Source: Desulfobacterales bacterium
GTDB lineage: Bacteria; Desulfobacterota; DSM-4660; Desulfatiglandales; Desulfatiglandaceae
Direction: 5' to 3'
Assembly (NCBI GenBank): GCA_027027005.1
Contig: JALVMN010000072.1
Location: forward strand, 1-45,535
DNA: 45,535 nt
The translations under genes were made by a program, and so were the position numbers. This document shows, piece by piece, positions 28,941 to 30,669 of this stretch. The notes under the pieces are model-generated. The model searched no databases. It saw only the letters and a program-made list of their open reading frames with translations, and was not told the DNA's origin. Positions within the stretch are counted from its first letter, which is position 1; every line of letters starts with the position of its first letter.

Positions 28941-29984
28941 CTAGTTTCTCTTGCCGGCCAACTGTCCGCAGGCTGCCATGATGTCGGCACCCTTGCTCTT
29001 TCTCACAATGGCTGTTGTGTGCCTTGAGAGCAGTATCTCCTGGAACCGACTGATACTTTCACGGGAAGGTGGGGTGAGATCCAGTTCAGGATGAGGGTTT
29101 AGTGGGATCAGATTCACCTTTGCCCTTATCCCCTTGAGAAGTGTGACGAGTCTGTGGGCATCTTCAGGGCTGTCATTTACTCCATTTATGAGGACGTATT
29201 CAAAGGTGATCATCCTGCGGTTGGGCAAAGGGAATTCCCTGCAGGCCTTCATTAGCTCTTTGAGAGGAAACTTTCGGTTTACAGGCATCAAATGGTTTCG
29301 CACCTCATCAGTGGTAGCATTAAGTGATACTGCAAGATTAAGCGTTAACTCGTTGGAAAGTCGCCGTATTTTAGGGACGATGCCGCAGGTGGAAAGGGTG
29401 ACTTTGCGGTGGGAAAAATTCATCCCATCATCTGCCAAGAGATTCTTTAAGGCCTTGACAACTGCCTGGTAATTGGCCAAGGGCTCTCCCATTCCCATGA
29501 AAACGATGTTGGTTAACCCTCTCTTTTCACCATGCTCAGAAGCGCTCTCCAGTTCTCTTTTTGCAAAGATCACCTGTTCGATGATCTCAGCCGGGGTGAG
29601 GTTTCTCTTGAATCCCGCACGGGCAGTAAGGCAGAACCTGCATCCCATGGCACAGCCCACCTGGGAAGAGATGCAAAGGGTGTAGTGGTCACGCTCGGGG
29701 ATGAGCACTGATTCTATGAAGAACCCATCATCCAGTCGAAACAAGTACTTTCTGGTTCCATCGGAGGATTCCAGGGTCTCCACTGCCTCCAGGTGGTCTA
29801 TGGTGGCTCGGGAGGCCAGCATTTCGCGGGCAGGCTTTGCAAGATCCGTCATCTCATCAAAGGATTGGGCGAGTCGTTTGAAGAGCCAGTTTCGGATTTG
29901 TCTTGCCCTGTAAGGCTCCAATCCCAGGCCTCTAACCCACTCAATGGTTTCGCTGAGATCAAGCCCTTTGGGTTGGATCTTCAT
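28941..29984 (-). CDS. rlmN: 23S rRNA (and tRNA) adenine-C2 methyltransferase RlmN
   Basis: Radical-SAM enzyme that methylates A2503 of 23S rRNA and A37 of some tRNAs. The 347-residue protein has an N-terminal accessory domain, the cluster motif C-x3-C-x2-C in CAMGCRFC (Cys111, Cys115, Cys118), NIVFMGMGEPLANY, the SAM-binding STCG and SLNA segments, and a C-terminal Cys339 in MAACGQLAG that forms the methyl-transfer intermediate. ATG at 29984 is selected because homology begins at MKIQPKGLDL; a longer frame reaches 30104 but its first 40 residues read into the next gene. Its start lies 26 bases inside the 3' end of the ThyA-like gene. Confidence 0.95.
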   Translation of the reverse strand: MKIQPKGLDLSETIEWVRGLGLEPYRARQIRNWLFKRLAQSFDEMTDLAKPAREMLASRATIDHLEAVETLESSDGTRKYLFRLDDGFFIESVLIPERDHYTLCISSQVGCAMGCRFCLTARAGFKRNLTPAEIIEQVIFAKRELESASEHGEKRGLTNIVFMGMGEPLANYQAVVKALKNLLADDGMNFSHRKVTLSTCGIVPKIRRLSNELTLNLAVSLNATTDEVRNHLMPVNRKFPLKELMKACREFPLPNRRMITFEYVLINGVNDSPEDAHRLVTLLKGIRAKVNLIPLNPHPELDLTPPSRESISRFQEILLSRHTTAIVRKSKGADIMAACGQLAGKRN

Positions 29985-30669
29985 TACTACAATTGCCCTT
30001 GGATAGGGCTGAAGGGTTTTCACACATGGTCCTAAGCTTGGCCAGCTCCCAGACATAGTCATAGAGGTGAAGCCCCTTGCTGGCGGCGATAATCTCGCCG
30101 TCATCCACCCCTATGCTGGATGCCATGTATTCCTTCAGGAGCTGGATGGCCCCCAGATTGGCAGGGAACCCGTTCCAGAGGTCCCATGAGCGGAAGTAGA
30201 CGATGAAGTGGAGCTTTCCATCCTGGACCCTGGTATCAATACCTCTCAGACATGGCGGATCGGTGAGATAAATGGATTGAGGGTCTCCCACGGTCATATA
30301 GGCCTGATTGGTTGCATGGCCGTCCTCTTTGTACATGCGTATCACCTCTGCTATCTGATGCTCAAGGTATTGGCCGTATGTATAATCCTCGCCGGGCTGT
30401 TTTGCAGAGGTCATTAAGTATGGGAGGTATTCGTCCAGGTAGTCCTCAGGCACTGGATTGGGTATTCCCAGGGAAGGGGGGATATCTGGAAGTAGGGGAC
30501 GGACTCCTGGATACTTTATGTGGATGGTTATGTAGTCAAACTCAAGGCGTTTCTGGCCCTGATAGCTTCCCCTTTCAATCACATATTCCCTGCCTGTCTC
30601 AAGCAGCCTGTAAACGCATTGAAACCAGGCATCAGGAAGGTCTCTTGCCTGGATAAACTCTAGCCGCAT
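29959..30669 (-). CDS. Thymidylate synthase-like protein (methanogen type), atypical
   Basis: A 236-residue member of the ThyA fold family. Key residues keep exactly the E. coli spacing at an offset of six: Cys140 (catalytic, in DPPC), Arg160-Ser161, Asp163, Asn171, His201 and Tyr203 correspond to Cys146, Arg166, Ser167, Asp169, Asn177, His207 and Tyr209. However the paired arginines that bind the dUMP phosphate across the dimer (E. coli Arg126 and Arg127) are Thr120 and Asn121, the His after the Cys is Leu141, and the chain ends 35 residues after the His-Tyr motif instead of about 57. It resembles the short ThyA of methanogens. It may make dTMP with an unusual cofactor or modify another nucleotide; activity is unproven. 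Confidence 0.72.
   Translation of the reverse strand: MRLEFIQARDLPDAWFQCVYRLLETGREYVIERGSYQGQKRLEFDYITIHIKYPGVRPLLPDIPPSLGIPNPVPEDYLDEYLPYLMTSAKQPGEDYTYGQYLEHQIAEVIRMYKEDGHATNQAYMTVGDPQSIYLTDPPCLRGIDTRVQDGKLHFIVYFRSWDLWNGFPANLGAIQLLKEYMASSIGVDDGEIIAASKGLHLYDYVWELAKLRTMCENPSALSKGNCSNEDPTQRA

Follow-up and report, generated by a model that had tools for sequence, protein, structure and literature searches.

This locus raises the question whether a protein that keeps the catalytic residues of the thymidylate synthase ThyA, and has lost parts of the enzyme that are otherwise thought necessary, makes the dTMP of the cell that encodes it. The window analysed here, a stretch of 45,535 nucleotides (GenBank assembly GCA_027027005.1, contig JALVMN010000072.1), belongs to a Desulfobacterales MAG that is 97% complete with 8.9% contamination. 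The open reading frame concerned is a genuine gene, and its 3′ end is overlapped by the probable ATG of rlmN, an arrangement through which the two genes are likely to be translationally coupled (Table 1). In the loci of relatives, gyrB lies upstream in 29 cases, dnaN upstream in 26 and rlmN downstream in 28. The window has the same arrangement, and such surroundings fit the role of a thymidylate synthase.

Table 1. Coordinates of the thyA-like gene, the adjacent rlmN and the residues discussed in the text (positions within the window).
Feature	Position	Strand	Description
thyA-like gene (thymidylate synthase family)	29959..30669	-	236 aa from an ATG; coordinates include the stop codon
rlmN	28941..29984	-	downstream of thyA-like gene; Pfam RlmN_N and Radical_SAM; probable start ATG at about 29984
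T120-N121-Q122	30304..30312	-	stands where classical ThyA has its phosphate-binding pair Arg126-Arg127
C140-L141-R142	30244..30252	-	nucleophile C140; L141 in place of His147; R142
F159-R160-S161-W162-D163	30181..30195	-	phosphate Arg/Ser and catalytic Asp retained; F159 in place of Gln165
N171	30157..30159	-	aligns with E. coli Asn177, which favours dUMP over dCMP
H201-x-Y203	30061..30069	-	E. coli His207/Tyr209, deoxyribose contact
C-terminal tail, residues 216-236	29962..30024	-	unconserved; not equivalent to ThyA C-terminal lid

The protein scored 37.8 bits against Pfam PF00303, above the curated gathering cutoff of 24.3. PF00303 was the only domain detected in the Pfam scan, with no PF02511 (ThyX) domain, and a database annotation based on Pfam would read thymidylate synthase. 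The best match to any model, and the only one that was near full-length, was to NCBIfam TIGR03283, the methanogen thymidylate synthase (E 3e-25; residues 5-207 collinear with positions 2-198 of 201), and this model also matched 35 of 35 diverse relatives with a best E of 3e-31. The kinship to methanogen ThyA proposed in the first-pass annotation is thus upheld, although the score of 88.9 bits is far below the curated equivalog cutoff of 174.55. The classical ThyA model, TIGR03284, failed with 34.4 bits against a cutoff of 108.35, and a profile-profile alignment to classical ThyA covered only residues 75-223, the first third of the protein not being alignable. Structure prediction, which the first-pass annotation had suggested, gave an AlphaFold2 model with the ThyA fold (mean pLDDT 91.3, pTM 0.87), and the Foldseek matches of this model are ThyA-fold enzymes. 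Since the Pfam cutoff is passed, the TIGR03283 match has an E of 3e-25 and the ThyA-fold model is confident, the resemblance did not arise by chance.

From E. coli residue 105 to 221 the two proteins align without a gap, with 28 of 117 residues identical, and a constant offset of -6 places Cys140, Arg160, Ser161, Asp163, Asn171, His201 and Tyr203 on Cys146, Arg166, Ser167, Asp169, Asn177, His207 and Tyr209. This offset bears out the exact E. coli spacing that had been claimed for these seven residues, and the alignment likewise confirms the claim that Thr-Asn (T120-N121) stands in place of the Arg pair and Leu (L141) in place of the His after the Cys. To these changes we add the replacement of Gln165 by the invariant Phe159. 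None of the altered residues is private to the window protein, as they are shared family-wide. Conservation was followed in three alignments: 18 sequences from the order, with a mean column identity of 83%; A2, with 35 sequences; and A3, with 114 bacterial and viral sequences. In A3, Gln122, Cys140, Phe159, Arg160, Ser161, Asn171, His201 and Tyr203 were found in 114 of 114 sequences, Asn121 in 113, Arg142 in 112 and Asp163 in 111, and position 120 is Thr or Asn throughout the family. Asn171 was also kept in 35 of 35 sequences of A2, in which two odd members (L076 and L083) are without His201 and Tyr203. The hallmarks of the family in A2 and A3 are T/N120-N121-Q122, L141, R142, F159 and W162.

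Arg126 and Arg127 of classical ThyA are a phosphate-binding pair supplied by the second subunit, and its C-terminal segment closes over the active site and encloses the folate; both the pair and the lid are important in the E. coli enzyme. R142 follows the nucleophile by two residues and should therefore face the same side of its strand; it is a candidate substitute for one of the lost phosphate Arg residues. The C-terminal shortening described in the first-pass annotation is real, but its figure of about 20 residues was too low. In all aligned relatives conservation ends at about residue 215, so that the whole lid (E. coli 222-264, about 43 residues) has no counterpart; the last 11 residues of the window protein (226-236) have a pLDDT below 50 in the AlphaFold2 model.

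We were unable to detect a ThyX (PF02511) match in the source genome, or a PF00303 protein other than the product of the thyA-like gene itself. Among 61 genomes of the same order, the ortholog was found in 47, representing 35 of 40 genera and mostly at 75-89% identity, while ThyX was found in 2. No genome had a classical ThyA, since the PF00303 matches proved to be the orthologs. A wider sample of the phylum comprised 297 genomes, of which 73 match the subfamily profile, and the 37 that do so with at least 330 bits were taken as close carriers. ThyX was present in 0 of these 37 as against 191 of the 260 other genomes (Fisher 2e-19). Since species are not independent, the count was repeated by family, with ThyX in 1 of 14 families having close carriers and in 63 of 76-83 others (p about 1e-6 to 1e-7; families tallied by hand). 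Coexistence with ThyX was seen in 12 of the 73 matching genomes overall and is commoner in the more divergent members; among 31 named carriers ThyX was above cutoff in 4, and in 0 of the 8 from Dehalococcoidia or Chloroflexi. Dehalococcoides were reported in 2009 to have both ThyA and ThyX (PMC3224940), and that ThyA may be of the same short type. With no ThyX, no second ThyA and the same pattern throughout the clade, the loss of dTMP synthesis that the first-pass annotation had entertained is unlikely.

Our results suggest, with a probability of about 0.8, that the thyA-like protein is the sole thymidylate synthase of its cell and represents a short, methanogen-like ThyA subfamily that has spread across Desulfobacterota and Dehalococcoidia as well as their viruses. 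This reading draws on its being the only candidate for the function, the mutual exclusion with ThyX, the catalytic set kept in 114 sequences, the ThyA fold, the genomic place and the tetrahydrofolate (THF) genes of the clade described below. Several observations speak against it: the Arg pair and the lid are both missing, carriers are without FolA, the usual partner of ThyA, some of the divergent relatives, though a minority, occur alongside ThyX, the formate-THF ligase (FTHFS) was not found in the source MAG itself, and no ortholog was seen in 14 of the order's 61 genomes, of which two are 98% complete. If the protein is the synthase, Cys140 would add to C6 of dUMP to give the covalent intermediate, Asn171 would select uracil, and Asp163, His201 and Tyr203 would orient the base and the sugar. 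The phosphate could be held by Arg160/Ser161 together with a further basic residue that replaces the Arg126′/127′ pair, the conserved R41, R142 and R147 being candidates, methylene-tetrahydrofolate would be the carbon donor, and the pocket would have to close without a C-terminal lid. For the reduction, the hydride would most likely come from the folate, as in classical ThyA, and an enzyme other than FolA would then have to reduce the dihydrofolate.

The other readings of the protein differ in what they make of its missing parts and of its methanogen-like sequence. The loss of the Arg pair and the lid would be natural in a decayed or redundant ThyA that makes no dTMP in a cell salvaging thymidine, yet the column identity across the order, the catalytic residues kept in bacterial and viral sequences alike and the mutual exclusion with ThyX make this the least credible of the readings. 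Hydroxymethylation or hydroxylation of a pyrimidine nucleotide instead of dTMP synthesis, as by dCMP hydroxymethylase, MilA or AfhB, would agree with the shared fold, the altered phosphate site and the common viral copies. dCMP hydroxymethylases, however, have Asp at the position of the dUMP-selecting Asn, and Asn was seen there in 114 of 114 sequences; most carriers, moreover, have no other thymidylate synthase. The invariance of Asn171 led us to reject a nucleotide hydroxymethylase, and it makes the other nucleotide substrate raised in the first-pass annotation unlikely. Its suggestion of another folate such as a pterin corresponds to a thymidylate synthase dependent on tetrahydromethanopterin (H4MPT), like the methanogen enzymes, and TIGR03283 is indeed the best model match, but far below its cutoff. 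FTHFS, a THF enzyme, was found in 52 of the 61 genomes of the order, including a congener of the source MAG, and the methanopterin enzyme Mch, an H4MPT marker, in 3, two of these without the thyA-like gene; Mch was not found in the source genome. Since FTHFS is common and Mch rare, the carbon carrier is most likely tetrahydrofolate despite the resemblance to methanogen enzymes. H4MPT was rejected as the carrier on these distributions, and dependence on it seems quite unlikely.

The absence of FolA, overlooked in the first-pass annotation, is the most unusual feature of the system, and it bears on the reduction step. FolA (PF00186) was not found in the source genome and was present in 0 of the 37 close carriers of the phylum sample, as against 3 of the 3 genomes of this sample with classical ThyA, in two of which the genes are adjacent (read from coordinates). 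ThyA and FolA have been treated as a functional unit (PMC9931769), and bacteria without FolA mostly use ThyX (PMC1971073). A thymidylate synthase that took its hydride from an external donor (a flavin, a reduced pyridine nucleotide or another carrier) without oxidising the folate, in effect ThyX-like chemistry on a ThyA fold, would return tetrahydrofolate, so that FolA would not be needed. The absence of the folate-enclosing lid is in keeping with such an enzyme, as is the existence of short ThyA-fold enzymes that act on dCMP with FAD (PDB 9iqu, 9iqc; TM 0.70-0.79 to our model). However, FolA is rare across the phylum (23 of 297 genomes), and its absence from 37 carriers is therefore not significant alone (p 0.09). 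De novo folate synthesis also needs some dihydrofolate reductase even in organisms with ThyX, and in many cases that gene has not been recognised (PMC1971073). The protein showed no flavin-binding motif, and in fold it is no closer to 9iqu than to MilA or ThyA. We give an external hydride donor a small but real chance; recycling of dihydrofolate by a reductase other than FolA is the conservative reading.

Among known systems, the TIGR03283 methanogen family is similar in its near end-to-end match and its short length, whereas the hosts here are bacteria with THF genes, and Mch is absent from 58 of the 61. Classical ThyA (PF00303, TIGR03284; E. coli) shares the fold and the Cys, Arg, Ser, Asp, Asn, His and Tyr at identical spacing; in contrast to it, the window family has T/N-N for Arg126-Arg127, Leu for His147 and Phe for Gln165, ends without the C-terminal 43 residues, has a first third that is unalignable by profile, and has no FolA partner. 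The window protein is accordingly filed neither under TIGR03283, given its score below the cutoff and a host without the H4MPT marker, nor as a classical ThyA, given the Arg pair, the lid, the model cutoff and FolA; it is a member of a short, methanogen-like ThyA subfamily that is widespread. ThyX (PF02511) fills the same slot, with no close carrier having it, and also occurs mostly without FolA, but it is unrelated in fold and sequence. The phage dCMP hydroxylase AfhB and its FAD-dependent relative (9iqu, 9iqc) are likewise short (217-234 residues) with a ThyA fold, but they share 17-18% identity with the window protein and their chemistry is dCMP hydroxylation. A special kinship to AfhB was considered and rejected, as its query-normalised TM-score is no better than those of MilA or ThyA and AfhB does not appear in the 60 sequence matches listed. 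Asgard ThyA sequences group with methanogen ones, and archaeal thymidylate synthases are scarcely characterised (PMC9931769). Our literature search found no paper on this bacterial ThyA branch, nor on AfhB.

If the protein is the sole synthase, a large clade of bacteria that use THF but have no FolA contains no thymidylate synthase that we could find other than a ThyA-type enzyme, in contrast to what would be expected from the ThyA-FolA unit (PMC9931769) and from the prevalence of ThyX in FolA-less bacteria (PMC1971073). Either a dihydrofolate reductase other than FolA serves the enzyme, or the enzyme works differently. Should the hydride be external, hundreds of anaerobic bacteria and viruses would make dTMP without FolA, and the ThyA fold would be bridged to ThyX-like chemistry. 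The family suggests that some ThyA enzymes can do without both the Arg126/127 pair and the lid, and it offers a bacterial, probably THF-using entry point to a barely characterised, archaeal-type branch of ThyA.

At least 566 relatives were confirmed. The named ones come from Desulfobacterota MAGs (labelled Deltaproteobacteria, Desulfobacteraceae, Desulfobacterales or Syntrophaceae), Chloroflexi/Dehalococcoidia and others, and none was labelled archaeal among the best 80 matches of the contig scan. Relatives are also encoded on 178 viral-contig stretches from IMG/VR, membership of which alone is no proof of viral nature, and viral and bacterial sequences are interleaved in the tree, with at least 11 changes by parsimony. 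A plasmid or phage origin of the window copy was rejected because all records in the plasmid and phage collections fall below 60% identity, yet IMG/VR contigs reach 82%. Many viral copies have neighbours that encode RecA, the beta clamp, a Toprim protein, a GroES-like protein and a fusion of DNA polymerase A with a uracil-DNA-glycosylase domain; one such fusion is the open frame L241:1687-4338, near the thymidylate synthase gene of its viral contig. Viral contigs L195, L198, L200, L203, L207, L211, L213, L218, L219, L228, L251 and others have a QueE-like radical SAM gene and a GroES-like gene close to the thymidylate synthase gene, and several of them also an HslV-like gene (QueE and HslV assigned by eye). 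The QueE-like gene might point to 7-deazaguanine DNA modification.

The more divergent members L080-L082 and L088-L090 have an insertion of about 20-40 residues immediately ahead of the stretch that leads to the T/N-N-Q motif, and some of their genomes also have ThyX. The odd member L083 (G343) has a long insertion before the Cys and reads CLKLGLAEAY where His201 and Tyr203 are lost; its family (f71) also has a PF00303 protein of about 500 aa and a weak FolA match. Open frames of about 500 aa with a weak PF00303 match (profile 90-262) were seen in genomes without ThyX (G063, G093, G127, G133, G156, G210, G231, G251, G268, G270, G287, G308 and others) and may represent a further, longer type of ThyA-like synthase. 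Within the same order, two genomes from a single genus (G042 and G045, 98% complete) are without the thyA-like gene, ThyX and PF00303, and have FolA and Mch. In the phylum sample, 24 of 297 genomes, each at least 85% complete, match none of the subfamily profile, PF00303 and ThyX. A tandem-domain ThyX, with two PF02511 matches in one frame of about 500 aa, was seen in L033/L034 (G056) and in many other ThyX matches of the phylum sample, and it resembles the domain-duplicated ThyX described in Chloroflexi (PMC3224940).
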